A stretch of 44,041 bases of DNA from Clostridiales bacterium. Lineage in GTDB: Bacteria; Bacillota; Clostridia; Oscillospirales; Oscillospiraceae. The DNA lies in contig JAJQCW010000045.1 in the NCBI GenBank assembly GCA_021202515.1, forward strand, positions 1-44,041. The letters are read 5' to 3'. The notes beneath the pieces are model-generated. The model worked only from the letters and a program-made list of their open reading frames with translations, searched no databases and was not told the DNA's origin. The position numbers and the translations under genes were made by a program. Of the stretch, positions 105 to 35,506 are shown one piece after another. The first letter of the stretch is position 1; every line of letters starts with the position of its first letter.

Positions 105-1304
105 GTGAAGAAAATCATCCATTTCATCGGCGGTTCGGTGCAAATCCGACTGGAAGGGCCGTTTCCGGAGCGGTTCCTGAACCTGTGCGGCACGGCGCGT
201 CTCCCCTTCTGGGACGCAGCGCGGGAGAGCGGCCACGTTCTCCGCTTGACCCTCCCCGCCTGGCAGCTTCGCCGGGCCAGGACGCTGGCGGAGCGGGCCA
301 TGTGTGAACTGACGGTGGAGCGGCGCTTCGGATTGCCCGCCTTTTTGTATCGGTTCCGCCGGCGGTACGCCTTGGCCGCCGGACTGGTTTTCGCACTTTT
401 TTGCGCTGTCATTCTGTCCCAGTTCGTTTGGGTCATCCGGGTGACGGGAAACACCGCCGTCCCAAATTCCGTCATTTTGACCGAATTGGATTCCTTAGGA
501 TTCGGAATTGGCAGCTATGGCCCCGGCGTAGACTGCCGGGCGCTGGCAAATCAGGCCCTGCTGGACCTGCGGGAGCTGAGCTTTCTGTCGGTGAACATCA
601 GCGGCATCTACGCCGAGGTGGTGGTGCGGGAGGCCACTCCCGCCCCGGAGGTGGAGGACCCCACGGCGGCGGCGGACATCGTGGCCGCCGTGGACGGGGT
701 GGTGGTGGACGTGGACACCGTCCGGGGCAAGACCCAGGTGGAGGAAGGGCAGGCGGTGCTGGCGGGGGAAATTCTCATCTCCGGGCTGGAGACATACGAG
801 AGCGGCGACGGCAGCGGTACGGTGCTGTCCTCCCGGCAGGTCCGGGCGGAGGGGGACGTCTGGGCGCTGACCAACCGAACCCTCCGCTCCGCCACCCCTT
901 TGACGGCGGAAACCAGGGCCGGAGAGACCGTGCGCACCCTGTACTCGTTAAAAATTTTAAAATGCTCGGTCAAATTTTATCAAAACAGTGGCATTTCCGG
1001 TCTGACCTGTGGTAAAATAAAAAAAGTTTACGCCCTGACTTTGCCGGGCGGGACGGTTTTGCCCCTGGCGTGGGAAAAACTGACCGTCGCCATCGGCGAG
1101 CTGACCTCCGCCAGTGTGGTCCGCGCCAGCGCCGAGGACTATCTGACCGGGGTGCTGGAAACCCGGCTCTCCGCCCTGCTGGGGGAGGAGGGGCAACTGC
1201 TTTCCAGCCAAATCAGCTTCGAGGAGGCGGACGGCGTGCTGACCGGCACCCTGCGGGCCTCGTGTTTGGAGCAGATCGGCAGAACGGTGGAGCTGGGGAA
1301 TTAG
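105..1304 (+). CDS. yqfD: Sporulation protein YqfD
   Basis: Encodes a 399-residue membrane protein, the usual YqfD length. The GTG start at 105 follows a purine-rich GGAGAAAGG about 12 bases upstream, 29 bases after the yqfC stop. One transmembrane segment is visible at about residues 89-110, followed by a POTRA-like stretch (VIRVTGNTAVPNSVIL) and a long extracytoplasmic part, the normal YqfD layout. The family is needed at a middle stage of sporulation in Bacillus, with unknown biochemical role. The stop TAG (1302-1304) lies within a repeat of the ATTAGCA type, so the last residue (Asn) and the stop are repeat-derived. Confidence 0.93.
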   Translation: MKKIIHFIGGSVQIRLEGPFPERFLNLCGTARLPFWDAARESGHVLRLTLPAWQLRRARTLAERAMCELTVERRFGLPAFLYRFRRRYALAAGLVFALFCAVILSQFVWVIRVTGNTAVPNSVILTELDSLGFGIGSYGPGVDCRALANQALLDLRELSFLSVNISGIYAEVVVREATPAPEVEDPTAAADIVAAVDGVVVDVDTVRGKTQVEEGQAVLAGEILISGLETYESGDGSGTVLSSRQVRAEGDVWALTNRTLRSATPLTAETRAGETVRTLYSLKILKCSVKFYQNSGISGLTCGKIKKVYALTLPGGTVLPLAWEKLTVAIGELTSASVVRASAEDYLTGVLETRLSALLGEEGQLLSSQISFEEADGVLTGTLRASCLEQIGRTVELGN

Positions 1305-1680
1305 CAATTAGCAATGTGCAATGCACAATTATGAGGAGACCGGACGTATCGTTGTCGCCTTACGGCGAGGGCGCGTTGTACTTGCTGCCTGGTCAATGAT
1401 TTTGCTCAGAATGATGCCAAAACGCCTGTAGGGGCGGCCCGTGGCCGCCCGCAATAACCAACTGCGTATCCCGGACGGCTAAGGGACGCCCCTACACCTA
1501 CGACAGCAAAAGAGAAACCGTGTGCCTGGTGGCGGAGGGGTTGCGGCGGATTTGTTTTCCACATTGTCCCCGTGACACGAACACGGCTGCAAACCCGGTC
1601 ATTGCGCATTGCTAATTGCACATTGCTAATTGATAAAACCCGGTCATTGCTAATTGCTAACTGCACATTGCTAATTGATA
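1299..1680 (+). repeat. Family A composite element 1, carrying a B palindrome
   Basis: Fills the whole yqfD-phoH gap. The left end (1299-1332) has ATTAGCA/ATGTGCA units; the right end (1598-1680) has the same units inverted and duplicated. The directional core runs from a TCGCCTTACGGCGAGG hairpin (about 1355-1370) to an ACACGGCTGCAAACCCGGTC block (about 1581-1600). A family B palindrome sits in the middle at 1428-1495. Outside the repeat parts I see no gene or promoter here. Confidence 0.85.
1428..1495. repeat. Family B GC-rich palindrome inside element 1
   Basis: Begins GTAGGGGCGGCCCGTGGCC and ends with the inverted form GGGACGCCCCTAC. The right arm is slightly decayed compared with other copies. 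It lies within the family A core, which is uninterrupted at 6281-6510, so it looks like a later insertion. Confidence 0.8.
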
Positions 1681-1687
1681 CAAGGAG

Positions 1688-2692
1688 ATGAACCGATTGA
1701 TCGAACAGCGCGTCAGTCTGGAGCGGATGGAGGAAGCGGCCACCCTCTTCGGCGCTTTTGATGAAAATATCCGCATCATCGAGCGGGAGTTGTCCGTTCG
1801 TATTTTGATTCGGGAGGAAGAGCTGAAAATCAGCGGAGAGGCGGAGCAGGTGCTGCTGGCGGTGAAAACCGTCCAGGGCCTGATGAGCCTCATCGCCCGT
1901 GGCGAGCCGCTGAACGAGCAGAACATCCGCTACATGATCTCCCTGGCCCGTGCGGGCCAGGAGGAGCGCATCAACGACATGGCCAAGGACGTGGTCTGTG
2001 TCACTGCCAACGGCAAGCCCATCAAGGCCAAGACCGTGGGACAGGCCCGCTACGTCAAGGACATCCAGACCCACACCATCACCCTGGGGGTGGGGCCAGC
2101 GGGCACCGGCAAGACCTACCTGGCGGTGGCGGCGGCGGTGGCCGCCTTCAAGGCCCGGGAGGTCAACCGCATCATCCTGACCCGCCCGGCGGTGGAGGCT
2201 GGGGAGCGGCTGGGGTTCCTGCCCGGCGACCTCCAGAGCAAGGTGGACCCCTACCTGCGGCCCCTGTACGACGCGCTGTTTGAAATGCTGGGCAGCGAGA
2301 CCTATGAGAAGTATGTGGAGCGAGGCAACATTGAGGTGGCGCCCCTGGCCTACATGCGGGGCCGGACCCTGGACGACTCGTTCATCATCCTGGACGAGGC
2401 CCAGAACACCTCCAGGGAGCAGATGAAGATGTTCCTGACCAGGCTGGGCTTCGGCTCCAAAATCGTCATCACCGGCGATATCACCCAAATCGACCTGCCG
2501 AAGGATCAGACCTCCGGCCTGAAAGAGGCCATGCGGGTGCTGAACGGGGTGGAGGACATCGCCATTCGCCGCCTGACCGGGGCCGACGTGGTGCGCCACG
2601 CCTTGGTGCAGCGCATCATTCAGGCTTACGAGGAGGACGAGCAGCGCCGGAACCCGCCCAAAAAGCACCCGGCGGACAAGCCCCGGAAATGA
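1688..2692 (+). CDS. phoH: PhoH-like ATPase (YbeZ/PhoH)
   Basis: A 334-residue P-loop ATPase with Walker A GPAGTGKT (residues 136-143) and Walker B FIILDEAQN (232-240), characteristic of the PhoH core domain. PhoH/YbeZ proteins work with YbeY in RNA metabolism and ribosome maturation, and ybeY follows directly. The start is uncertain: AAGGAG (1682-1687) abuts the ATG at 1688, so an in-frame TTG at 1697, nine bases from the Shine-Dalgarno, may be the true start and would remove only three residues. The 3' end overlaps a possible ATG of ybeY. Confidence 0.95.
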   Translation: MNRLIEQRVSLERMEEAATLFGAFDENIRIIERELSVRILIREEELKISGEAEQVLLAVKTVQGLMSLIARGEPLNEQNIRYMISLARAGQEERINDMAKDVVCVTANGKPIKAKTVGQARYVKDIQTHTITLGVGPAGTGKTYLAVAAAVAAFKAREVNRIILTRPAVEAGERLGFLPGDLQSKVDPYLRPLYDALFEMLGSETYEKYVERGNIEVAPLAYMRGRTLDDSFIILDEAQNTSREQMKMFLTRLGFGSKIVITGDITQIDLPKDQTSGLKEAMRVLNGVEDIAIRRLTGADVVRHALVQRIIQAYEEDEQRRNPPKKHPADKPRK

Positions 2693-2703
2693 GGGAAAAT
2701 GCC

Positions 2704-3201
2704 ATGAACCACGAAATCATTTTGGAATCCGATCTGGAGGAACCCTTCCCCTACGCCGACCTGCTGGAGACCTGCATCTGCGCCGCACTGGAGCAGGAGG
2801 GGGTCACGGTGGGCTGCGAGGTGGACGTGCTTATCACCGACGACGCGGGCATCCACGAGATCAACCGGGAGCAGCGGGGGGTGGACCGGCCCACCGACGT
2901 GCTCTCCTTCCCCATGTTCCAACTGGAGCCGGGGGTCCCCCCCACCCCGGAGACGGCGGAGACCGACCCCGCCACCGGGCTGCTGCCCCTGGGAGACATG
3001 GTCATCTCCTACCAGCGGGCGCAATCTCAGGCGGAGGAGTACGGCCACAGCGTCCGGCGGGAGCTGGGCTATCTGGCAGTCCACTCCGTCCTCCACCTGC
3101 TGGGCTACGACCACATGGACGGGGACGACGGCCCCATGAAGCGGCAAATGCGGGCGCGGGAAGAGGATATTATGAACGCGCTGGGGATACCCAGAGAGTA
3201 A
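2704..3201 (+). CDS. ybeY: Endoribonuclease YbeY
   Basis: A 165-residue metalloprotein carrying the signature HSVLHLLGYDH, matching HxxxHxxGYDH, whose three histidines bind the catalytic zinc. YbeY acts in 16S rRNA 3'-end maturation and ribosome quality control. I chose ATG 2704 because GAGGG (2692-2696) sits seven bases before it; an earlier ATG at 2689 overlaps the phoH stop (ATGA) and would add five residues. Translational coupling with phoH is likely. Confidence 0.95.
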   Translation: MNHEIILESDLEEPFPYADLLETCICAALEQEGVTVGCEVDVLITDDAGIHEINREQRGVDRPTDVLSFPMFQLEPGVPPTPETAETDPATGLLPLGDMVISYQRAQSQAEEYGHSVRRELGYLAVHSVLHLLGYDHMDGDDGPMKRQMRAREEDIMNALGIPRE

Positions 3202-3204
3202 AAC

Positions 3205-3562
3205 CAATTAGCAATTAGCAATGTGCAATGTGCAATGTGCAATGAACGGGTTTGCGGCCTGGTGCGAGAAACCCCTCCACCATGCTTCGCATGGTCCCCC
3301 TCCCCTTTGCGACTCGCATGGCCCAAAAGGGCCATAGCTCCCTGCATTTGCGCTAAAGCGGAATTGGCCATTCGGCCAGCGCTTCACAGGGGAGGCAAGA
3401 GGGGTAGTTAGTTATCGAAAAGCAGTACCCCTTGGGAAATCTGTGCTATTTTGGGCAAAAGTGTTGGCCAAAAATCAAATACAACACTTCCTCGCCGTAA
3501 GGCGACAACGATATGTCCGGTTTTCCCCATAATTGCACATTGCACATTGCACATTGCTAATT
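3205..3562 (-). repeat. Family A composite element 2, inverted, carrying a C element
   Basis: Fills the gap between ybeY and the YcxB-like gene. ATTAGCA/ATGTGCA units lie at 3205-3246 and, inverted, at 3530-3562. The core is in the opposite orientation to element 1: the CGGGTTTGCGGCC block is on the left (about 3247) and the CCTCGCCGTAAGGCGA hairpin on the right (about 3490-3505). A family C element occupies 3269-3410. No gene is apparent in this 379-base gap. Confidence 0.82.
3269..3410 (+). repeat. Family C element, divergent long copy
   Basis: Starts ACCCCTCCACC and ends GAGGCAAGAGGGGTAGTTAG, as in other C copies, but the middle is replaced by two different hairpins (CATGCTTCGCATG and ATTGGCCATTCGGCCAGCG-like). 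It is nested inside family A element 2. Confidence 0.7.
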
Positions 3563-3580
3563 TTAAGAAGGAGCGAACTC

Positions 3581-4186
3581 ATGAGCGAACAGGAACAAAA
3601 CGAGACCATGAACGTCACCATCGAGGAAGTGGACGAGGAGGACACCCGCCCCATCGTGGAGACCACCACCGTCATCGACGAGCGGCTGGTCCATGTGCTG
3701 GCAAAAAGCGCCGTCCGCAGGGACCAAAAGAGCGAGAAGCGCCGCCCCATCTACACCGGCCTCGCCATCGCCATTCTGGTGCTGGCGGCTTACCTGGCCT
3801 ACACCTACTTTATCACCAAGACCAACACCACCCGCGGGCCGGTGATGATCGTCATTATGGTCATCATGGCCATCACCCTGCTGCGGTATCTCCGCACCCC
3901 GCTGATCGACACGATGGAGCGGCGGATGCAGCCCTACCTGGGCCAGGCGTGGCACTACGTCATCTCCGACGACGGCATCACCCTGACTCTGAACGGCCAG
4001 GAGGCCCTGTTCAAGTGGGAGGAGATCACCGGCTGGTGGCTGGAGGACGGCTGCTATATGATGGAGGTCGCTGGGCAGGCCATCGTATTCCGGCAGGACA
4101 GCCTGGACGAAGACGAGGAAGAGGATTTGAAGGAGCTGCTCTACGTCTATCTGGGCGACGCTATGACAATTAGCAATGAGCAATGA
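3581..4186 (+). CDS. YcxB-like membrane protein
   Basis: A 201-residue protein with an acidic N-terminus (about 50 residues), two transmembrane helices (about residues 61-84 and 88-110) and a C-terminal domain with the run LTLNGQEALFKWEEITGWW typical of YcxB-like proteins. Function is unknown for this family. ATG 3581 follows AAGAAGGAG with good spacing; upstream in-frame ATGs lie inside the repeat and lack a Shine-Dalgarno. The last residues (MTISNEQ) and the TGA stop are encoded by family A repeat sequence, so the original C-terminus may have been replaced. In Bacillus this slot holds dgkA and cdd. Confidence 0.75.
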   Translation: MSEQEQNETMNVTIEEVDEEDTRPIVETTTVIDERLVHVLAKSAVRRDQKSEKRRPIYTGLAIAILVLAAYLAYTYFITKTNTTRGPVMIVIMVIMAITLLRYLRTPLIDTMERRMQPYLGQAWHYVISDDGITLTLNGQEALFKWEEITGWWLEDGCYMMEVAGQAIVFRQDSLDEDEEEDLKELLYVYLGDAMTISNEQ

Positions 4187-4321
4187 GAAATGTGCAATTA
4201 TGTGGAAAACGGAGGCTGGCGGTTCCTTTTGAAGGGTATCGTTTCCCACCGGCATTTCCACAGAACAACCACGGCTGCAAACCGGTTAATTGCTAATTGC
4301 ACATTGCTAATTGCAAATTGA
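4168..4321 (+). repeat. Family A element 3, short copy
   Basis: About 154 bases between the YcxB-like gene and era, with ATTAGCA-type units at both ends in inverted orientation (4168-4200 and 4285-4320) and the CACGGCTGCAAACCGGTT block before the right end. The central part is short and has no B or C insertion. Its left end overlaps the last six codons of the preceding gene. Confidence 0.8.
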
Positions 4322-4336
4322 ATTAAAGGGGTTACT

Positions 4337-5233
4337 ATGAACATCAACTATTCCGGCATCATCACCATCGTGGGCCGCCCCAACGTGGGCAAGTCCACCC
4401 TGCTCAACGCCCTGGTGGGGGAAAAAGTGGCCATCGTCAGCCACAAGCCCCAGACCACCCGGAACCGCATTACCGGCATCGTCAACCGGGGGGACAAGCA
4501 GTTTGTCTTTACCGACACCCCCGGCCTCCACAAGGCCCGCAACCGGCTGGGGGAGTATATGGACGGTGTGGTCCGGGCCAGCATCGACTCCGTGGACGCG
4601 GCGGTGCTAGTGGTGGAGCCTATCCCCACCCCCGGCGAGCCGGAGATGCAGCTCATGGGGCGCATCCAGGCGCTGAAAGTCCCCGCCGTGCTGGTCATCA
4701 ACAAAATCGACCTGCTGGAGAACAAGGACAAACTGCTGGAGGTCATCGCCGCCTACCAGGAGCAGTGCCGGTTTGAGGCCATCATCCCCCTCTCCGCCGC
4801 CAAAAAGGACGGCGTGGATGAGTTGCTGGACACCCTGGGGGGGCTGCTGCCCGAAGGTCCTCAGCTCTTCCCGGACGACATGACCACCGACCAGCCCGAG
4901 CGCCAGATGATGGCGGAGATTTTGCGGGAAAAGCTGCTGCTGCGGCTGAACAAGGAAATTCCCCACGGGACCGCCGTGGAGATCACCCGCTTCGCCGAGC
5001 GGGACGACGGCATCATCGACGTGGAGGCCACCATCTTCTGCGAAAAGGCCAGCCACAAGGGCATCATCATCGGCAAAAACGGCACCATGCTGAAAAGCAT
5101 CTCCACCGCCGCCCGGCGGGACATGGAGCGCTTCATGGGGGCGAAGGTCTACCTCCAGACCTGGGTGAAGGTCAAGGAGAACTGGCGGGACAGCCTGACC
5201 GCCATCCACAACTTCGGCTATCGGGAGGACTAA
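4337..5233 (+). CDS. era: GTPase Era
   Basis: A 298-residue GTPase with G1 GRPNVGKST (13-21), G3 DTPG (60-63), G4 NKID (122-125) and a C-terminal KH domain with GIIIGKNGTML (about residue 240). Era binds the 3' end of 16S rRNA and assists 30S assembly. ATG 4337 is preceded by AAAGGGG. It stands in the conserved ybeY-era-recO neighbourhood, here without dgkA and cdd. Confidence 0.97.
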   Translation: MNINYSGIITIVGRPNVGKSTLLNALVGEKVAIVSHKPQTTRNRITGIVNRGDKQFVFTDTPGLHKARNRLGEYMDGVVRASIDSVDAAVLVVEPIPTPGEPEMQLMGRIQALKVPAVLVINKIDLLENKDKLLEVIAAYQEQCRFEAIIPLSAAKKDGVDELLDTLGGLLPEGPQLFPDDMTTDQPERQMMAEILREKLLLRLNKEIPHGTAVEITRFAERDDGIIDVEATIFCEKASHKGIIIGKNGTMLKSISTAARRDMERFMGAKVYLQTWVKVKENWRDSLTAIHNFGYRED

Positions 5234-5319
5234 TCTTTCCAGACATAAACCCCGCGGAATCCTCACAGTCTAACCCCAACGGACAGGGCTTGTGTATGAG
5301 CAAAACCGGAAGCGTTTTT

Positions 5320-5386
5320 GTAGGGGCGGCCCGTGGCCGCCCGCAGGAACCGCCTGCTTTTCCGGGCGGCCATGAGCCGCCCCTAC
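5320..5386. repeat. Family B palindrome between era and yqzL
   Basis: A 67-base element with near-perfect ends GTAGGGGCGGCCCGTGGCC and GAGCCGCCCCTAC around GCAGGAACCGCCTGC. It stands alone in this gap, not inside an A element. Confidence 0.85.
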
Positions 5387-5438
5387 AGGTGGAAAAACCA
5401 ATTTTTGCGCAGGCGCTGCCCCAACGGAGGATTCGACT

Positions 5439-5615
5439 ATGACATCTGAACAGAGTTGGGCGCTCTTTTTCCGCACCGGCCTGCCGGAGGCTTACGTGCT
5501 GGCAAAGGCCGCTGAGAGAGGACGGGACCACCATGAACCTGACCACCCAGGCCATCGTCCTGCGGGCGGTGAACTACAAGGAATCGGACAAAATTCTGAC
5601 CCTACTGACCCGTGA
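5439..5615 (+). CDS. yqzL: YqzL-like small protein overlapping recO
   Basis: A 58-codon frame starting at ATG 5439, seven bases after a strong GGAGGA (5427-5432). The N-terminal half reads EQSWALFFRTGLPEAYVLAK, which matches the W..F..TG...AY..YK pattern of the YqzL family of about 45-residue proteins encoded between era and recO in many Firmicutes. The last 28 codons overlap the start of recO in another frame and are probably unconserved. Function of YqzL is unknown. The short length makes it easy to miss; synteny and the ribosome-binding site support it. Confidence 0.7.
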   Translation: MTSEQSWALFFRTGLPEAYVLAKAAERGRDHHEPDHPGHRPAGGELQGIGQNSDPTDP

Positions 5616-6288
5616 CAGCGGTAAGCTGACGGTGACGGCACGGGCCTGCCGCAAAAGCCGCAAACAGGGAGGCGGCGTCTCCGCTGCCGCTCAGCTTTTG
5701 GTCTGGTCCGACGTGGTCCTCAAGGAGTACCGGGGCCGCTGGACCCTCAGCGAGGCGGTGACGAATCGGGAGTTCCGGGGCGTCCGGGAGGACCTGGACA
5801 AAATGGCCCTCGGCTCCTACTTCGCGGAGGTGACGGAGCTGCTGGCCCCGGAGGGGGTCCCCGCCCCGGAGCTGCTGGCCCTGCTGCTGAACTCCCTCTA
5901 TGCCCTGGAGAGCCTGGACCGGCCCCTGCCGCTGGTCAAGGCGGCCTTCGAGCTGCGGGCCATGTGCCTGGCGGGATACGCCCCCGCCCTGGACCGGTGC
6001 GCCCTCTGCGGCGCAGAGCAGCCGGAGGAACCCCGCTTCCACCTGCGGGAGGGCGTGCTGCACTGCCGGGGCTGCCGGGTGGGGGACGGCATCTCCCTGC
6101 CCCTGGACGCCGGGAGCCTGACCGCCATGCGGCACATCGTCTCCTGCCCCTCCAAGCGGCTGTTCTCCTTCCGGCTCTCCGGGCCGGGGGAAAAGCGGCT
6201 GGGGGACGCGGCGGAGGGGTTTTTGCTGACCCAGTTGGAGCGGGGGTTTTATACATTGGACTTCTATAAACAAATCAAAACCAATTAG
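5533..6288 (+). CDS. recO: DNA repair protein RecO
   Basis: A 251-residue RecO with an N-terminal OB-fold region and a C-terminal zinc site visible as Cys156-x2-Cys159 and Cys178-x2-Cys181. RecO loads RecA onto SSB-coated DNA together with RecR in the RecF pathway. The start ATG 5533 follows GAGAGAGG. The final codons AAA ACC AAT TAG run into a family A repeat, which supplies the stop codon. Confidence 0.95.
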   Translation: MNLTTQAIVLRAVNYKESDKILTLLTRDSGKLTVTARACRKSRKQGGGVSAAAQLLVWSDVVLKEYRGRWTLSEAVTNREFRGVREDLDKMALGSYFAEVTELLAPEGVPAPELLALLLNSLYALESLDRPLPLVKAAFELRAMCLAGYAPALDRCALCGAEQPEEPRFHLREGVLHCRGCRVGDGISLPLDAGSLTAMRHIVSCPSKRLFSFRLSGPGEKRLGDAAEGFLLTQLERGFYTLDFYKQIKTN

Positions 6289-6510
6289 CAATTAGCAATG
6301 CGCAAAACAATTAGCAATGTGCAATTAGCAATGTGCAATGACCGGGTTTGCAACCGTGTTCGTGCTACGGGAGCGTCGGTGGAAAACTTGTAGCATACCG
6401 GGCAAAGATGCTGGTCAAAGAGCAAGCACAACGATTCCTCGCCGTAAGGTGACAACGGAGCGCTTGGTTTCCACATAATTGCACATTGCACATTGCTAAT
6501 TGCTAATTTG
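6281..6510 (-). repeat. Family A element 4, uninterrupted reference copy
   Basis: The cleanest copy, 230 bases with no B or C insertion. Left terminal units at 6281-6340, right inverted units at 6475-6509. The core is inverted relative to element 1: CCGGGTTTGCAACCGTG block at about 6341-6357 and CCTCGCCGTAAGGTGA hairpin at about 6440-6455. Its reverse complement can be read alongside element 1 almost throughout, which shows where the B palindrome of element 1 was inserted. Confidence 0.85.
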
Positions 6511-6542
6511 AATTGCGTTTCCAATTTGAAAAAGGATCGACT

Positions 6543-8921
6543 ATGACAGACTTATACGAAAAATCCATCCACACCCTGGAGCTGCCCCGCGTGCTGGAGC
6601 TGCTGGCGGAGCAGGCGGTCAGCGACGGGGCCAAGGAGCGCTGCCTGGCCCTGCGGCCCAGTGGCGAAGAGGTGGAGGTGCTGCGCCGCCAGGCGGAGAC
6701 CACCGCGGCGCGGGACATGATGGACCTCCACGGCAACCCGGCCCTTGCCAACCTGAAACCGGTGGACGCCACCCTCCAGCGGGCGGCGCTGGGGGGCGCG
6801 CTGAACAACCGGGAGCTGCTGGAGGTGGCGGCGGTGCTGCGCACCGCCCGGAACGTGGCGGCCTACAGCGGCTTCGGGGAGAAAAGCACCATCCTGGACC
6901 CCCTGTTCCGCAGTCTGGTCCCCGACCAGGGGCTGGAGAACCGCATCACCGGGGCCATCCTCTCCGAGGACGAGGTGGCCGACAGCGCCAGCCCCGCCCT
7001 GGCGGACATCCGCCGCCACATCCGCAGCGCCTCCGGCAAGGCCCGGGAGGTGTTGCAGCGGCTCATCTCCTCCTCCGCGTCCAAATATTTGCAGGAGGCC
7101 ATCATCACCATCCGCAACGACCGCTTCGTGGTGCCGGTGAAGGCTGAGTGCCGGGGCAGTGTTCCCGGCCTTATCCATGATGTATCCGCCTCCGGCTCCA
7201 CCCTGTTCGTGGAGCCCATGGCGGCGGTGCAGGCCAACAACGAGCTGCGGGAGCTGCTGAGCCGGGAGGAAAAAGAGATCGCCCGCATCCTGGCGGAGCT
7301 TTCCGCCCTGGCCGCCCAGCGCCGGGAGGATATCCTGCTGGACTATGACCTGCTGCTCCAACTGGACGTGATTTTCGCCAGGGGCAAGCTCTCCTACGCC
7401 ATGAACGGGATGCCCCCCAGACTGTCCCACAGCGGCGGCTTCCACTTCCGCAAGGCCCGCCACCCCCTGCTGGACCCCAAAACGGCGGTACCCATCGACC
7501 TGCGGCTGGGGGAGGACTTCGATACATTGGTCATCACCGGCCCCAACACCGGCGGCAAGACGGTGACGCTGAAAACCGCCGGACTGCTGACGCTGATGGC
7601 CCAGTGCGGCCTGCACCTGCCCGTGGGGGACGACAGCAGCTTTTCCATCTTCCAGGCGGTGCTGGCGGACATCGGGGACGAGCAGTCCATCGAGCAGAGC
7701 CTGTCCACCTTCTCCTCCCACATCACCAACATCGTGGAAATTCTTGCTCAGGCGGGAGAGGACACCTTAATTCTCTTCGACGAGCTGGGAGCGGGCACCG
7801 ACCCCATCGAGGGTGCGGCGCTGGCTGTCGCCATCATCGAGGAAGCCCGGAGCATCGGGGCGCGGGTGGCGGCCACCACCCACTATGCCGAGCTGAAAGT
7901 TTACGCCATGACCACGCCGGGGGTGGAGAACGCCTCCTGCGAGTTCAACGTGGAGACCTTGCAGCCCACCTACCGGCTGCTCATCGGCGTTCCCGGCAAG
8001 TCCAACGCCTTCGCCATTTCCCGGCGGCTGGGCCTGCCGGAACACGTCATCGCCAACGCGGGAGGCCGCATCGACCGGCAAAACGTCCAGTTTGAGGACG
8101 TGCTGACCCGGCTGGAGCAGCAGCGCCAGGAGCTGGAGGACCAGCAGCAGAAGGCGGAAAAGCTCCGCCGCCAGATGGAACAGGACGCCGCCGCCGCTGC
8201 CGAGAGCCGCCGGGCCATCGAAGAGGAGCGCTCCAAGGTGGTGGACAAGGCCCGCGCCGAGGCCCAGCAGATTTTGGACGACGCCCGCAGCGCCTCCAAC
8301 CGGGTATTTCATGAGCTGGACGGCATGAAAAAGCGCCAGAAGCAGGGCCAGGAGGCCGGGGACACCAACGCCCAGCGCGCCGAGCTGCGCCGCCAGTTGA
8401 ACCAGGCCAGCCAGCGGGTGGGCCAGAGCCGCAGCCTGCCCCAGCCGGAACCCTCCCGCCCCGCTCAGGAGGGGGACACGGTGGAGCTGCTCAGCCTGGG
8501 CACCCGCGCCCAGGTGCTCTCCGTGGGCAAGGACGGGGCCTTGCAGCTCAAGGCCGGCATTTTGACCATCTCCGCCACCCAGGACGAGGTGCGGGTGGTC
8601 TCCGCCGCCTCCGCCCAGCCCAAGAAGCAGCCCCAGCGCAAATCCAACACCGCTCACCACCAGGTCACCCGCAGCAGCGTGGGCCAGGAGCTGGACATCC
8701 GGGGCATGACCTGCGACGAGGGCGTGGCCATGGTGGAGCGGTTTTTGGACAGCGCAGTGATGGCCCACCTGACCGGCGTCTCCATCATCCACGGCAAGGG
8801 CACCGGCGTCCTCCGCCAGGCGGTCCACCAGTACCTGAAAACCTGCAAGTACGTCAAGCGCTACCGGCTGGGCCGGTTCGGAGAGGGCGAGGACGGTGTC
8901 ACCGTTGTTGAACTAAAATGA
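6543..8921 (+). CDS. mutS2: Endonuclease MutS2
   Basis: A 792-residue MutS2. The Walker A GPNTGGKT is at 333-340, the Walker B LILFDELGAGTD at about 409-420, a long Gln/Glu/Arg-rich coiled coil at about 520-640, and a C-terminal Smr nuclease domain from about 716 (LDIRGMTCDEG, HGKGTGVLR). MutS2 acts on branched DNA and, in Bacillus, on collided ribosomes. ATG 6543 was preferred to the upstream ATG 6513 because AAAAGGA (6530-6536) is correctly spaced and family members start near this point. Confidence 0.96.
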   Translation: MTDLYEKSIHTLELPRVLELLAEQAVSDGAKERCLALRPSGEEVEVLRRQAETTAARDMMDLHGNPALANLKPVDATLQRAALGGALNNRELLEVAAVLRTARNVAAYSGFGEKSTILDPLFRSLVPDQGLENRITGAILSEDEVADSASPALADIRRHIRSASGKAREVLQRLISSSASKYLQEAIITIRNDRFVVPVKAECRGSVPGLIHDVSASGSTLFVEPMAAVQANNELRELLSREEKEIARILAELSALAAQRREDILLDYDLLLQLDVIFARGKLSYAMNGMPPRLSHSGGFHFRKARHPLLDPKTAVPIDLRLGEDFDTLVITGPNTGGKTVTLKTAGLLTLMAQCGLHLPVGDDSSFSIFQAVLADIGDEQSIEQSLSTFSSHITNIVEILAQAGEDTLILFDELGAGTDPIEGAALAVAIIEEARSIGARVAATTHYAELKVYAMTTPGVENASCEFNVETLQPTYRLLIGVPGKSNAFAISRRLGLPEHVIANAGGRIDRQNVQFEDVLTRLEQQRQELEDQQQKAEKLRRQMEQDAAAAAESRRAIEEERSKVVDKARAEAQQILDDARSASNRVFHELDGMKKRQKQGQEAGDTNAQRAELRRQLNQASQRVGQSRSLPQPEPSRPAQEGDTVELLSLGTRAQVLSVGKDGALQLKAGILTISATQDEVRVVSAASAQPKKQPQRKSNTAHHQVTRSSVGQELDIRGMTCDEGVAMVERFLDSAVMAHLTGVSIIHGKGTGVLRQAVHQYLKTCKYVKRYRLGRFGEGEDGVTVVELK

Positions 8922-9038
8922 CACAAATCTTGCATATTCTGAGGCATATTTCGCCCTTTCCCTGCGGCTTTCGTACCATTTTCACGACAATGTGGCATAT
9001 TTCCTCGCCCGGTGGGAAAAAGTTTGTTAAATTTGACA

Positions 9039-9068
9039 TTGACGGCGGGAAATAAAATTTGTTATGAT
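9039..9068 (+). promoter_or_regulatory. Promoter of the HPr/Crh-like gene
   Basis: TTGACG (9039-9044), 18-base spacer, TATGAT (9063-9068), with a TG at 9060-9061 giving an extended -10. An overlapping TTGACA at 9033 would leave 24 bases and is less suitable. The AT-rich stretch contrasts with the GC-rich surroundings. Confidence 0.7.
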
Positions 9069-9111
9069 ATACTCCAGCTATAACAGGATAGCCTTTGGGG
9101 AGGAATCTTTC

Positions 9112-9375
9112 ATGACTGTAAAAGAAGCGGTTGTCAGCAGCAAGGTTGGCCTGTATGCGCGCCCTGCCACGTTTTTCATCCAGAAAGCCAATGAGTACGT
9201 CAGCTCTATCTGGGTGGAGGTCGAAGACAGCCGGGTAAACGCCAAAAGTCTGCTGGGAGTGCTGTCTATGGGCATTCTCCAGGGAACCGTTGTGAAACTG
9301 ATGGCAGACGGACCGGACGAAAAAGAGGCCATCGACGGCCTGGTGGAAGTCCTGGCCTGCGATACCGTCAACTGA
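9112..9375 (+). CDS. HPr-family protein with Tyr in place of His15 (Crh-like)
   Basis: An 87-residue HPr-fold protein. The active-site signature GLHARPA of HPr is GLYARPA here, so the residue that accepts phosphate from Enzyme I, His15, is Tyr15. The regulatory serine is kept exactly: Ser46 in VNAKSLLGVLSMGI. This combination resembles Bacillus Crh (Gln15, Ser46), which has no PTS transport role but, when phosphorylated on Ser46 by HPrK, is a CcpA corepressor; the stretch FFIQKANEY is also Crh-like. Inferred role: carbon catabolite signalling rather than sugar uptake. The gene has its own promoter and terminator. ATG 9112 follows GGGGAGGAA. Confidence 0.85.
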   Translation: MTVKEAVVSSKVGLYARPATFFIQKANEYVSSIWVEVEDSRVNAKSLLGVLSMGILQGTVVKLMADGPDEKEAIDGLVEVLACDTVN

Positions 9376-9396
9376 TCTGTTTTTAGGACAAAAATC

Positions 9397-9426
9397 AGCG
9401 CCGCAGGGTTTTGCGGCGCTTTTTTT
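9397..9426 (+). terminator. Rho-independent terminator after the HPr-like gene
   Basis: Perfect 9-bp stem AGCGCCGCA / TGCGGCGCT (9397-9405 and 9412-9420) with a GGGTTT loop and a run of seven T. Confidence 0.9.
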
Positions 9427-9452
9427 GTGAACAGCCACACCGGGAGGCGGCA

Positions 9453-11285
9453 ATGACCAAGGAAGAATTGAAGGAAAAGGCCCACTCCCTCCCCCTCCAG
9501 CCGGGCGTCTACATCATGATGGACAAGGCGGGAGAGGTCATCTACGTGGGCAAGTCCCGGGCGCTGAAAAACCGGGTCAGCCAATACTTCGCGGACCTGG
9601 CCAGTCACACGGGCAAGACCCGGGCCATGGTCAGCCAGATCGACCACTTCGACTATATCCTGGCCGACAGCGAGTTTGAGGCCCTGGTGCTGGAAAACTC
9701 CCTCATCAAGCGTCACAAACCCAAGTATAACATCTTATTAAAGGATGACAAGGGATACCCCTATATCCGCCTGTCCGTCAAGGACGAGTACCCCCGATTC
9801 TCCCTGGCCTCCCGGTCTGTGGACGACGGGGCCAGGTACTTCGGTCCCTACGGCAGCCGGGGCAGCAGCTACGAGATCATCAAGACCGTCTCCGCCGCCC
9901 TGCGCCTGCCCACCTGCAAGAAGAAGTTCCCCCGTGACATCGGCAAGGAGCGGCCCTGCCTGAACCACCATCTGGGCACCTGCGACGGCTGGTGCCAGCC
10001 GATGATGAGCGCGGAGGAGTACCAGTCCCGCATCCGCCAGGCCATCCGCCTGCTGGACGGCAAATTCGCCCAGGTGGAAAAGGAATTAGAAGAAGAAATG
10101 CTCCGGGCATCGGCGGAGCTGCGGTTCGAGAACGCCGCCGAGCTGCGGGACCGCTTGCAGGCCATTCAGCTCCTGGGCACCCGGCAAAAGGTCGTCGCCG
10201 GGGCCGGAGCGGACACCGACGTGGTGGGCTTCTATCGCGGCGAGGCCAAAAGCTGTTTTGTGGTGCTGCACTTCCTGGACGGGGCGCTGGCGGACCGGGA
10301 CACAGAGCTGTTGCCCACCCCCATGGAGGAAGAAGAACAGGACGTGGTCTCCGCGCTGGTGAGCCAGTACTACGGTGACCGGGGCAACCTGCCCCGACAG
10401 ATCTTGCTGCCCTGCCAGGTGGAGGGCCGGGAGGCCCTGCAACAACTGCTGACCCAGGCGGCGGGCCGCAAAGTGGAGCTGCTGGTGCCCCAGCGGGGGG
10501 ATAAAGTGCGGCTGGTGGAGCTGGCGGGGAAAAACGCCGCCGACGAAGCCGAGCGCGCCACCACCAAGGAGGAGCGGCAGAACCGCCTGATGGAGCTGCT
10601 GGGCAGCATGATGGGGCTGGAGAGCGTCCCCCACCGGTTCGAGGCGTATGACATCTCCAACACCGGTTCGGCGGACATCGTGGCCTCCATGACCGTCTTT
10701 GTGGACGGAAAACCTCTGAAAAAGGACTACCGCCGGTTTCGGCTCAAGGACATGACCGGCCCCGACGACTACGCCTCCATGGAGCAGGTGCTGACCCGGC
10801 GGTTCCGCCGCTACCTGGACGGGGACGAGAAATTTTCCACCCTGCCCGACGTGCTGCTGATGGACGGCGGTCTGGGCCAGGTCCACGCGGCGGAAACGGT
10901 GCTGGAGACGATGGGGCTGACCGTCCCCGTGTTCGGCATGGTGAAGGACGGACGCCACCGCACCCGCGCTCTGGTGGCGGGGGACGGGCGGGAGATCGGC
11001 ATCCAGTCCAACCAGGCGATTTTCTCCATGATCGGCCGTATCCAGGAGGAAACTCACCGCTTCGCCATCACCTACCACCGGGAGAGCCACGCGAAACACA
11101 CCGTCGCCTCGGAGCTGGAGGCCATTCCCGGCGTGGGAGAGGCCCGGCGCAAGGCGCTGATGAAGCAGTTCAAGAGCGTGAAGAACATCCGCGCCGCCAG
11201 CTATGAGGAATTGTGCCAGGCGGTGCCGAAAAACGCCGCGAAGGCGGTGTATGAGCATTTCCACCCGGAAGAAGAGAATAATTAG
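9453..11285 (+). CDS. uvrC: Excinuclease ABC subunit UvrC
   Basis: A 610-residue UvrC: N-terminal GIY-YIG nuclease (PGVYIMMD...EVIYVGKSRALKNR, about residues 16-45), a Cys-containing stretch (LNHHLGTCDGWC), a UVR motif (about 205-240), the RNase H-like C-terminal nuclease (EAYDISNTGSADIVASM, LLMDGGLGQV) and a tandem helix-hairpin-helix end (AIPGVGEARRKALMKQF). It makes the dual incisions of nucleotide excision repair. ATG 9453 follows GGGAGG at 9442-9447. The last codons AAT AAT TAG are part of a family A repeat, which provides the stop. Confidence 0.97.
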   Translation: MTKEELKEKAHSLPLQPGVYIMMDKAGEVIYVGKSRALKNRVSQYFADLASHTGKTRAMVSQIDHFDYILADSEFEALVLENSLIKRHKPKYNILLKDDKGYPYIRLSVKDEYPRFSLASRSVDDGARYFGPYGSRGSSYEIIKTVSAALRLPTCKKKFPRDIGKERPCLNHHLGTCDGWCQPMMSAEEYQSRIRQAIRLLDGKFAQVEKELEEEMLRASAELRFENAAELRDRLQAIQLLGTRQKVVAGAGADTDVVGFYRGEAKSCFVVLHFLDGALADRDTELLPTPMEEEEQDVVSALVSQYYGDRGNLPRQILLPCQVEGREALQQLLTQAAGRKVELLVPQRGDKVRLVELAGKNAADEAERATTKEERQNRLMELLGSMMGLESVPHRFEAYDISNTGSADIVASMTVFVDGKPLKKDYRRFRLKDMTGPDDYASMEQVLTRRFRRYLDGDEKFSTLPDVLLMDGGLGQVHAAETVLETMGLTVPVFGMVKDGRHRTRALVAGDGREIGIQSNQAIFSMIGRIQEETHRFAITYHRESHAKHTVASELEAIPGVGEARRKALMKQFKSVKNIRAASYEELCQAVPKNAAKAVYEHFHPEEENN

Positions 11286-11580
11286 CAATTAGCAATGTGC
11301 GTTTATAATTAGCAATTAGCAATGTGCAATGTGCAATTATGATTGCCCCGCTGGTTCAGCTGTGGGGAGAACCCCTCCGCCACCGCCTAAAGGCGGCGGC
11401 CCTCCTCCCCTTTCAGGGGAGGCAAGGGGGATAGTGCTTGTCGTCTGATGTCAATTTTGTCCGACAAAAATGGGGCTTTTAGTGAGAACCAGCGCCTTCT
11501 AGCTGCTCATCGCCAGCCACTAAAAAAACAGCGGCTGCAAACCAATCATTGTACATTGCTAATTGCACATTGCACATTGG
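11280..11580 (+). repeat. Family A composite element 5 carrying a C element
   Basis: Fills the uvrC-rsmD gap. Tandem left units at 11280-11341, right inverted units at 11547-11580, the GCGGCTGCAAACC block just before the right end, and a family C element at 11370-11434. No gene is apparent in these 313 bases. Confidence 0.82.
11370..11434 (+). repeat. Family C element, short copy
   Basis: ACCCCTCCGCCACCGCC, a GCCTAAAGGC hairpin, CTCCTCCCCTTTCAGGGGAGG and a closing AGGGGGATAGTGCTT. The TCCCC...GGGGA and CCGCC...GGCGG arms are imperfect palindromes. Confidence 0.75.
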
Positions 11581-11598
11581 ATAAAAGGAGGATTCGCC

Positions 11599-12144
11599 AT
11601 GCGCGTCATCACCGGTACGGCCAGAGGCCGTCGCCTGGGCGAACTGCCCGGCATGGAGACCCGCCCCACCACTGACCGGGTGAAGGAGGGTATGTTCAAC
11701 ATCATCCAATTCGACATTGAGGGCCGCCGGGTGCTGGACCTCTTCGGCGGCACCGGCCAGCTTGGCATCGAGTGCCTGAGCCGGGGGGCGGCGGAGTGCG
11801 TCTTTGTGGACCAGCGGAAGGACGCGGTGAAGCTCATCCGGGACAACCTGCGGGTCACCGGCTTCACCGACAAGGCCAAGGTGGTCCAGGGGGATTCCAT
11901 TGGGTATCTCAACACCGCCCGCCAGCCCTTCCATCTGGTGTTCCTGGACCCGCCTTATGACAGCGGTTTGCTGGAATCTGCGCTGAAAAAGCTCGCTGCA
12001 ATTGACATTTTGACGGATAATGGTATAATCATCTGTGAGAGCCGCGCAGAGGCCACCCTGCCCGACCTGCCCGCCCCCTTTGTCAAGAGCAAGGACTACC
12101 GTTACGGCAAGATCAAGGTCACTCTCTATCGAAAGGAAGGCTGA
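11599..12144 (+). CDS. rsmD: 16S rRNA (guanine966-N2)-methyltransferase RsmD
   Basis: A 181-residue SAM-dependent methyltransferase with motif I VLDLFGGTGQLGIE (about residues 43-56) and the N6/N2-amine methylase motif LDPPY (116-120). RsmD methylates G966 of 16S rRNA. ATG 11599 follows AAAGGAGG. It lies four bases before coaD, the common rsmD-coaD pair. Confidence 0.95.
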   Translation: MRVITGTARGRRLGELPGMETRPTTDRVKEGMFNIIQFDIEGRRVLDLFGGTGQLGIECLSRGAAECVFVDQRKDAVKLIRDNLRVTGFTDKAKVVQGDSIGYLNTARQPFHLVFLDPPYDSGLLESALKKLAAIDILTDNGIIICESRAEATLPDLPAPFVKSKDYRYGKIKVTLYRKEG

Positions 12145-12148
12145 CGCC

Positions 12149-12652
12149 ATGAGGACTGCCATCTATCCCGGCAGCTTTGACCCCGTCACCGCGGGGCATC
12201 TGGACATCATCCAGCGGGCGGCGGCCCAGTTTGACCGGCTGGTGGTCTGCGTGATGTACAACTCGGAAAAGCAGGGCCTGTTCACCCCGGCGGAGCGGGC
12301 GGAGCTGATCCGCCGGAGTTTGTCCGAACTGGACGGCGTGGACAACGTGGAGGTGGATTACGCCGACGGCCTGCTGGTGGACTACGCCCGCCGCCAAAAC
12401 GCCAACTGCGTGGTCAAGGGCCTGCGGCGGGTGGCGGACTTCGAGGCGGAGATGCAGATGGCCGACCTGAACCGGCAGCTCAGCCCCGGCGTGGACACTC
12501 TGTTTCTCACCGCCCGGCCTGACCTGGCCTTTATCAGTTCCACCATCGTCAAGGAAATGGCCCGGTATCAGGTGGACCTGCGGGGCTACGTGGCCGGGAG
12601 CATCGCGGACGACGTGACCGAGCGGATGCGCCAAAGATTAGAAAATCAATAG
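12149..12652 (+). CDS. coaD: Phosphopantetheine adenylyltransferase
   Basis: A 167-residue nucleotidyltransferase with PGSFDPVTAGHLDII (residues 7-21), including the TxGH phosphate-binding motif ending at His17, and the second motif ISSTIVKE. It performs the penultimate step of coenzyme A synthesis, 4'-phosphopantetheine plus ATP to dephospho-CoA. ATG 12149 follows AAAGGAAGG just past the rsmD stop, indicating translational coupling. Confidence 0.97.
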   Translation: MRTAIYPGSFDPVTAGHLDIIQRAAAQFDRLVVCVMYNSEKQGLFTPAERAELIRRSLSELDGVDNVEVDYADGLLVDYARRQNANCVVKGLRRVADFEAEMQMADLNRQLSPGVDTLFLTARPDLAFISSTIVKEMARYQVDLRGYVAGSIADDVTERMRQRLENQ

Positions 12653-12667
12653 ACGAAGCGGTTTGAG

Positions 12668-13067
12668 AATTAGCAATTAGCAATTAGCAATGTGCAATGT
12701 GCAATGTGAAATTGAGCTATTAGCTGCTAGCTGTTAGCCATTAGCCTGGGCAGTGCTTACTGTTTTGACGGCATTTTGTCCAACATGGTGCAGGTTTTCC
12801 ACAGAGAACTATCGTTCGATAATTGACCACCCCTCTTGCCTCCGCCGTCAAGCGGCACTTCCGCTGCGCTCCCTGCCCTGAAAGGGGAGGAGGGCCGCCG
12901 CCTTTAGGCGGTGGCGGAGGGGTTTGGGCACAAGGTTGAGCAAAAGCGATGGCCAGATAACGGAAAATACCCGTTTCTTTGCGAAAAACGTTTTCGACTG
13001 CGTCCCGGTGATACAGCTGTGGCTGCAAAGCCGGTCATTGCTCATTGCTAATTGCACATTGCAAATT
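12668..13067 (+). repeat. Family A composite element 6 with E, C and F modules
   Basis: The longest composite, covering the coaD to coiled-coil-gene gap. Left units at 12668-12712, then a GCTATTAGCTGCTAGC-type E module (12714-12747) and the CAGTGCTTACTG motif (12751). A C element in reverse orientation carries an F hairpin (12826-12929). The GTGGCTGCAAAGCCGGTC block precedes the right units (13034-13067). The 440-base gap holds no convincing gene. Confidence 0.8.
12826..12929 (-). repeat. Family C element with nested F module, reverse orientation
   Basis: Reverse copy of ACCCCTCCGCCACCGCC...GAGGGGTGGTC. It contains the F module CCGTCAAGCGGCACTTCCGC ... CGCTCCCTGC at about 12846-12876, absent from the copies at 11370 and 13695. 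Confidence 0.78.
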
Positions 13068-31391: not shown

Positions 31392-31471
31392 ATCAATTAG
31401 CAATTTGCAATGTGCAATGTGCAATTAAGGGGGGGACGGGACGTTCTGCCGTCGCCTTGCGGCGAGGGGTG
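31392..31471 (-). repeat. Family A half-element
   Basis: ATTAGCA/ATGTGCA units at 31392-31428 followed by the TCGCCTTGCGGCGAGG hairpin (31451-31466), but without the second inverted end. It fills most of the gap between the TSUP gene and the flavin reductase stop. Confidence 0.7.
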
Positions 31472-35437: not shown

Positions 35438-35506
35438 CAATTTGCAATTAGCAATGTGCAATGTGCAATTTGAGCTGTTAGCCGTTAGCCTGGATAGTGC
35501 TTGCTG
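35437..35506 (+). repeat. Family A end plus E module
   Basis: ATTAGCA/ATGTGCA units (35437-35471), then GCTGTTAGCCGTTAGCC (E module), then the GATAGTGCTTGCTG motif shared with 11430, 12750 and 42247. No inverted second end is present before the next gene. Confidence 0.65.

Follow-up and report, generated by a model that had tools for sequence, protein, structure and literature searches.

What fills the gaps between the genes of an operon when the filler carries no gene, recurs from one gap to the next and lies in either direction? The window analysed here, the whole of a 44,041-nucleotide stretch from a Clostridiales bacterium of the Oscillospiraceae (contig JAJQCW010000045.1), raises this question with six elements that fill operon gaps and end in arrays of the heptamers ATTAGCA and ATGTGCA (A-type arrays). 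When the sequence was re-read, the six elements were found where the original prediction, a model's reading of the letters alone, had placed them, with deviations of at most 1-2 bases. As it had also claimed, the arrays at the two ends of the window elements are in inverted orientation and the core has a direction, which is forward at 1299-1680 (and also at 4167-4320) and inverted at 3205-3562 and 6281-6510. With at most 2 mismatches allowed, the end pattern AATTAGCAATGTGCAA is found 40 times in the window and in none of 100 dinucleotide shuffles. The elements are short and gene-less with inverted terminal repeats, and they occur as dispersed copies in both orientations, as miniature inverted-repeat transposable elements (MITEs) do; they also have inverted period-7 arrays at both ends, as do the IVP-heptamer elements described below. 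We put forward, at a probability of about 0.75, that the window elements are gene-less, non-autonomous, MITE-like members of a widespread mobile family of IVP-heptamer elements. The full-length form of this family is best explained as an array of 7-bp repeats, a gene for the four-helix-bundle protein 23S-rRNA-IVP/S23 (IVP), and a complementary array of 7-bp repeats.

A family with two defined ends and an IVP gene in its full-length copies

A search with the 230-bp copy at 6281-6510, proposed in the original prediction, found many dispersed copies in the own genome of the window (G000) and in relatives, including 123 BLAST matches in G000, the window copies among them. The carriers of the family are G000, G041, G042, G022, G015 and G001, and about 1.63 Mb from these six genomes, in regions picked for holding arrays, were examined. 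They contain 299 strict heptamer arrays and 80 paired elements, 36 of which are 125-165 bp long. These 36 minimal copies align as a sequence of about 150 bp with two unlike ends: a left end CAATTAGCAATTAGCAATGTGCAATGTGCAATTATG, an inner repeat GGAAAAC..GTTTTCC, a hairpin TCGCCTTGCGGCGAG, the block GGCTGCAAACCCGGTCATTG and a right array. Two landmarks had been assigned to the core from the window alone, and they fare differently in the family, as the hairpin is optional (13/36 minimal copies) and the GGCTGCAAACC part of GGCTGCAAACCCGGTCATTG is kept in 27/36, each with at most 2 mismatches. The order of the units also differs between the two ends of the elements. Per unit, the ends of one element are less alike than shuffled ends (0.18 versus 0.345; 76 elements), because the family has two different ends, and the idea that one end is copied from the other by fold-back was dropped. 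Among the 138 unpaired arrays, 92 lie away from fragment edges and lack a partner up to 800 bp away, also when the pattern is relaxed. A 24-base end pattern, which can match several times per array, has 185 matches in G000, 144 in G041, 125 in G042, 82 in G022, 63 in G015 and 51 in G001; it has 0 matches in 4 other congeners, and the reversed-pattern control also gave 0.

Full-length copies were found within this family. The G041 element at L133:6371-6957 contains an open reading frame (ORF) of PF05635 (23S_rRNA_IVP, a four-helix-bundle family), and the IVP protein of G000 matches PF05635 with an E-value of 4.5e-27 and PDB entry 2rld at 8e-35. The original prediction that the elements have no coding capacity thus stands for the window copies and fails for the family, as its full-length copies encode 23S-rRNA-IVP. 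A PF05635 gene is present in 5/6 carriers versus 1/25 other congeners, where the sole case is a weak match that is probably Avd-like, judging by its adjoining repeats. All 5 carrier genes sit beside or within heptamer arrays: within A-type ends, in the same gap, in G000 and G041; within arrays of a second heptamer, TTAGCTG (B-type arrays), on both sides in G015 and G001; and next to a B-type array on the visible side in G022, where the contig ends on the other side. In the IVP element of G000 (C79, L188), the left subterminal part matches 20/80 paired elements, including window 1299-1631, window 6283-6508 and the G041 IVP copy itself, and the right one matches the G041 IVP copy only. The window elements thus share ends with the IVP-bearing copy of their own genome at the left end only. 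The C-terminal end of the G041 IVP gene is unlike that of G000.

ORFs of at least 80 residues were found in 5/76 paired elements of up to 700 bp, comprising 1 IVP, 3 without a Pfam match and 1 that contains masked bases and was left unscanned; the 4 paired elements above 700 bp were translated and read by eye only. No transposase with matching ends was seen, in an analysis in which whole genomes were not searched for one; the full-length copies with matching ends carry IVP. Two IVP proteins also score with Pfam bAvd, below its cut-off (E 2.7e-8 and 6.6e-6). No reverse transcriptase or template/variable repeats were noticed in the compact IVP elements read, in which no search was aimed at them.

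Heptamer arrays at IVP loci in other bacteria

We next consider IVP loci outside the carriers. The loci comprised 30 from a hidden Markov model (HMM) search of 398 phylum genomes (56 positive) and 80 named loci on GTDB contigs, which are the best 80 of 111 matches to an alignment of the carriers' IVP proteins; 95 were left after removal of three carriers, short flanks and near-duplicates. A period-7 array was called at a score of at least 13 within 500 bp of the IVP gene. Such arrays are present on the left at 59 loci, on the right at 60, on both sides at 46 and on either side at 73, and the either-side counts for other periods are 1 (period 5), 0 (6), 7 (8), 0 (9), 1 (10) and 1 (11). The outer flanks of the same 95 loci gave period-7 arrays on the left at 6, on the right at 8 and on both sides at 1, and shuffles gave 0/100; 11 loci of the DUF559 nuclease gave 0 left, 1 right and 0 both. 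At two-sided IVP loci, the units of the two sides are reverse-complementary to each other (at most 1 mismatch) in 32/46, versus 6% of mispaired loci. Taken alone, the HMM-sampled loci have period-7 arrays on either side in 19/30 and on both in 10, and the named loci in 57/68 and 36, respectively. The heptamer units vary widely from one locus to another, and the groups with period-7 IVP loci include Bacteroidota, Chlorobi, Treponema, Nitrospira, Planctomycetota, Chloroflexi and Clostridia. It is a matter of observation that the copies are dispersed and have two defined ends, and that IVP elements of like end design exist in the carriers and in several phyla.

One locus connects these elements with ribosomal RNA (rRNA). 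In an Rfam scan of 20 IVP loci, L219 lies inside a 23S rRNA gene and 19/20 have no rRNA match within the locus. L219 is a genuine intervening sequence of 23S rRNA that ends in heptamers, with period-7 scores of 12.5 on the left (reached by 0/500 shuffles) and 7.0 on the right (2/500). The window elements lie between protein genes and not inside a 23S rRNA gene, and the IVP/S23 ORF is absent from them; no Rfam family, the rRNA families included, reached threshold in a scan of the window. A terminal complementary stem is predicted for two window elements.

Several individual loci are recorded here as observations in their own right. Five of the seven period-8 loci come from Prevotella/Prevotellaceae (L276, L277, L295, L296 and L298), where period-8 arrays AATTGAAA/AATTGAAG on both sides replace period 7. 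Intergenic solo arrays of heptamers, 166 and 130 bp long, are present in G443 (L319, L324); they have no inverted partner in the stretch examined, and their unit is that of the G443 IVP element. Copies of the IVP-element end number 66 in G443 and 1 to 10 in G101, G222, G442, G444 and G445. The IVP elements of L264 and L300 lie directly upstream of a transfer-messenger RNA gene, identified by Rfam at L264 and by sequence likeness at L300. In L301 (G349:C150), four IVP genes occupy four successive gaps within one 5-kb stretch, with flanking repeats that differ by eye.

Filled and empty sites, and the window elements in their gaps

When plasmid records were searched with one IVP protein, 26 matched, mostly cyanobacterial, and 20 plasmid IVP loci were read, two pairs of which are near-duplicates. 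At a laxer threshold of 11, period 7 is present on either side in 13/20 and on both in 8, and period 8 on either side in 4. The positions of the IVP genes include the cas6-cas4 interval (twice), a gap within a pair of type III-B CRISPR genes and one within a pair of ribonucleotide reductase genes, and the neighbours are co-directional in 17/18 loci with two annotated neighbours. At one Trichormus/Scytonema site the element is present in three plasmids, and it is missing from six plasmids of 97.4-97.6% identity, whose match is split into two pieces. When two of these six empty plasmids were read, the comparison placed GTAAT on both sides of the insert of about 420 bp, or 8 bp with one mismatch by BLAST. 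Five other plasmid sites, compared at lower identity, gave a 3-bp overlap at one and losses of 7, 11, 16 and 42 bp. Since the junctions differ, there is no fixed target duplication that would support one defined enzyme. As far as sequence comparison can tell, the filled and empty sites show that the IVP-heptamer class is mobile, in these related plasmid elements. Of the remaining pairs, L385 against L393 gave another filler and L382 against L397 an alignment out of register, neither with an empty site. At L385 and L386, the plasmid copies of one IVP element resemble each other apart from the left array, which is longer by exactly two heptamers (14 bp) in one of them.

Within the genus, the family is present in 6/31 sampled genomes, which form one clade, and was not detected in the other 25; Era identity to G000 is at least 97% among the six carriers (G000 included) and at most 85% in the next relatives. 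In the class sample, the A-type end pattern occurs in 3/391 genomes (G000, G560 and G685), and IVP genes are present in 3/3 of these, versus 56/398 genomes of the phylum sample. Among the gaps listed for this operon, one and the same gap holds different fillers in different carriers, namely A-type or B-type arrays, GC-rich blocks or a DUF559-bearing filler, and comparable orthologous gaps in more distant congeners are often short. After 6 of 162 element-by-species comparisons were dropped for missing flank ends, the remaining 156 gave an A-type array in 122, B-type instead in 21, another filler in 11 and a near-empty site in 2 (G000 L097 versus G001, which retains part of an array, and G041 L133 versus G042). 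The A-type array is missing in at least one compared carrier for 17/69 compared elements. As the carrier regions were picked for having arrays, sharing at orthologous sites is overestimated.

The original prediction held that an ancestral intergenic feature would always be found at the same loci, without empty sites. The family departs from that picture only in part, given the 122/156 comparisons that keep the A-type array and the 2 near-empty sites, and the clean empty sites come from IVP elements of cyanobacterial plasmids and not from the window's own family. The suggested non-autonomous, MITE-like nature is borne out insofar as the copies are dispersed, in both orientations and intergenic, restricted to one clade of the genus and missing from some orthologous sites. 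By a crude open-frame test, the neighbours of the 74 carrier elements with readable flanks are co-directional in 43, divergent in 17 and convergent in 14, and the core orientation relative to co-directional neighbours is 19 : 14 (33 judged), with no clear preference. The predicted RNA fold of 6281-6510 has -89.1 kcal/mol (z -5.6) and that of 4166-4321 a z of -4.3, each stabler than all 200 shuffles.

The window copies can be read as a base unit of about 150 bp, clearest at 4167-4320, to which bigger copies add insertions; those at 1299, 3205, 11280 and 12668 contain other repeats, namely TGTAGGGGCGGCC, CCCCTCCGCC...AGGGGAGGC and the B-type heptamer. Element 1 (1299-1680, plus strand, core forward) has its left array at 1299-1330, the TCGCCTTACGGCGAGG hairpin at 1355-1370, an TGTAGGGGCGGCC block at 1427-1496 and its right end at 1582-1632, and the 45 bp of its right end are tandemly duplicated (1591-1635 and 1636-1680). 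Element 2 (3205-3562, minus strand, core inverted) consists of a left array with GGGTTTGCGGCC at 3205-3259, an inner GC-rich block at about 3271-3404, the inverted hairpin at 3490-3505 and a right array at 3531-3562; in G015, G001 and G022 this gap is occupied by other fillers. Element 3 (4167-4320, plus strand, core forward) is the base form of about 153 bp without the hairpin. Compared with G015, G001 and G042, it takes the place of the upstream gene's C-terminal tail and provides the stop codon of that gene. Element 4 (6281-6510, minus strand, core inverted) had been singled out as the uninterrupted copy; it is not the simplest form, as it has one additional array on its left (6282-6305). 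Element 5 (11280-11579, plus strand, core forward) has an extra array at 11280-11302, a GC-rich block at about 11371-11432 and its right end at 11529-11579. Element 6 (12668-13067, plus strand, core forward) starts with an A-type array (12668-12711), followed by a B-type TTAGCTG array (about 12714-12746), an inner GC-rich block and a right end at 13018-13067.

Two half-copies on the plus strand had been missed by the original prediction. The half element at 31394-31467 has a left array, a subterminal part and the hairpin TCGCCTTGCGGCGAGG, and no right end was found; that at 35438-35490 has an A-type array (35438-35469) that passes straight into a B-type TTAGCCG array, and no right A-type end was found. 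An A-type array running straight into a B-type TTAGCTG array (CAATT(T)GAGCT) was observed at window 12705-12746 and 35460-35490 and in gaps of G042, G022, G015 and G001, as if composite ends travel as one unit. In the era-recO gap (5233-5533), a filler with TGTAGGGGCGGCC lies between direct repeats of CCCCAACGGA, which is single in G042, and this filler is likely a separate insertion with a duplicated target. In L046 (G015), the filler of the gap before phoH contains a DUF559 nuclease gene and has GC-rich inverted ends CCCCTCCGCC..AGGGGAGGC. Among L069-L084, DUF559 loci have inverted flanks with scores of at least 23 in 6/12 and period 7 on one side in 1/11, and the DUF559 filler may be a parallel element family. 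The nuclease was dropped as a candidate mover because only 1/6 carriers have it, versus 12/25 other congeners; its flanks are inverted and not of period 7.

Explanations and known systems

How such elements would move can be outlined in conditional terms. IVP, a relative of Avd of diversity-generating retroelements, would bind the folded element, either as RNA or as a single-stranded DNA hairpin, and together with host enzymes would bring about its insertion; gene-less copies would be moved in trans by IVP, and solo arrays would be remnants. Insertions would persist mainly between genes, where the element can provide a stop codon, and gap-filling would therefore follow; if insertions in genes are purged, it needs no special targeting. 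The locations in small operon gaps and in rRNA hint that being transcribed matters. The varied junctions, read at six sites of differing divergence, may point to an RNA-primed or hairpin route more than to a transposase with a fixed cut. More tentatively, at somewhat under even odds, these elements may form a distinct mobile class without a transposase, combining a folded RNA or single-stranded hairpin with an Avd-related four-helix protein, in which rRNA intervening sequences are members and MITE-like copies and solo arrays are derivatives, and which, taken together, are a main source of the unexplained heptamer excess of bacteria.

Several observations weigh against this account and against membership of the window elements in an IVP family. 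It is by inference that we regard IVP as the driver of movement. The association between IVP and carriers rests on one clade, in which G042 has no IVP gene despite its 125 end-pattern matches, and G667 and G719, of the same distant family as G560 and G685, have IVP genes and no A-type ends. At the threshold used, 22/95 IVP loci have no period-7 array, and 7 have period 8; the named loci, found with the carriers' own proteins, may be biased, and the HMM-sampled share is lower (19/30). Copies of the IVP-element end are plentiful in only 1/6 other IVP genomes searched. For 52/69 compared elements the A-type array is present in every compared species, so that most insertions are old or shared, and the plasmid junctions vary, with 5-bp (8 with one mismatch) and 3-bp repeats and net losses at four sites.

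The inverted ends, small size, dispersal, lack of genes and two conserved but different ends would also be expected of ordinary MITEs, that is, deletion derivatives of an insertion sequence whose DDE transposase recognises the heptamer arrays in trans, with IVP a passenger. We regard this as unlikely, as IVP is the only Pfam-matching ORF of at least 80 residues in the 76 paired elements of up to 700 bp (1.63 Mb; one ORF unscanned), the junctions of related IVP elements vary without a fixed duplication, and IVP genes elsewhere have ends of like design but quite different sequence. A regulatory or mRNA-stability role is suggested by the strong folds (z -5.6 and -4.3), the location in operon gaps and the persistence at orthologous sites. 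BOX elements consist of boxA-boxB-boxC modules, and REP elements are palindromes with a RAYT gene. Transcribed hairpins of this kind, kept for operon function and spread by duplication, are a very unlikely explanation here, given the core orientation of 19 : 14, the 17 divergent and 14 convergent contexts among 74, the different filler at the same gap in 32/156 comparisons (21 B-type, 11 other) and the failure to detect the family in 25/31 sampled congeners, where the comparable gaps listed are often short.

Local slippage could also generate heptamer arrays, with mobility only apparent and IVP genes residing in slippage-prone gaps. Array length does vary between close copies (two plasmid copies 14 bp apart), and the solo arrays of 130 and 166 bp in G443 are compatible with it, but slippage offers no route to inverted pairs around a gene (complementary units in 32/46), to one core of about 150 bp at dozens of sites or to an insertion of about 420 bp between short repeats, and is strongly disfavoured.

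The 23S rRNA intervening sequences with an S23/IVP ORF, which RNase III excises from the transcript, resemble the IVP-heptamer family in their PF05635 protein, their terminal inverted repeats forming a long stem, their compactness and their sporadic occurrence; unlike them, the window elements are intergenic, gene-less and present in dozens of copies. In Coxiella, tandem heptamers GACAGAT precede the S23 gene of the intervening sequence and vary in number among strains, and older ideas held intervening sequences to be mobile or remnants of transposition (PMC4990558). The likeness to MITEs lies in short, gene-less, mostly intergenic sequences with inverted ends and many dispersed copies. They differ in that the window elements end in arrays of 7-bp units and have a presumed parent with a four-helix-bundle protein, that no parent transposase was seen and that related IVP elements have no fixed target duplication. 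Intergenic heptamer arrays like those of the window family have been published: TAACTGA in Beggiatoaceae, Cyanobacteria and Bacteroidetes, with regulatory roles or gene rearrangement proposed (PMC4679880), and GGGAATC in Xanthomonas and GGGGA(C/T)T in Nostoc, with 70 and 75 cases of two close arrays in convergent orientation in two Xanthomonas genomes (PMC4692102). The latter paper describes heptamer repeats as over-represented in bacterial genomes and lacking a detailed study. Neither accessible text ties these heptamers to IVP genes ('four helix', '23S' and 'S23' are absent from that of PMC4679880, and '23S' from that of PMC4692102).

PF05635 has been treated as resembling Avd (PMC10053308), in line with the sub-cut-off bAvd scores of two IVP proteins here, and 18 IVP genes have been reported in cas loci (PMC3936711), comparable to the 3/20 plasmid IVP loci here between cas or cmr genes. 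Intervening sequences, the IVP family, heptamer repeats and MITEs are thus each already described singly. In the literature searched, which covered no preprints and few subscription journals, and the accessible portions of the papers, a general link between IVP genes and heptamer arrays was not found beyond one intervening sequence with heptamers (PMC4990558), nor were gene-less derivatives or filled and empty sites.

The IVP-heptamer family joins three subjects that are kept apart in the literature seen, namely rRNA intervening sequences, whose origin is unclear, a widespread protein family without a known role, and over-represented heptamer repeats, and it may account for the origin of many puzzling 7-base repeats in bacteria. 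If the IVP protein does move the elements, they would transpose by a route that involves no known transposase. In the lineage of the window, the family explains the layered repeats that pack operon gaps.

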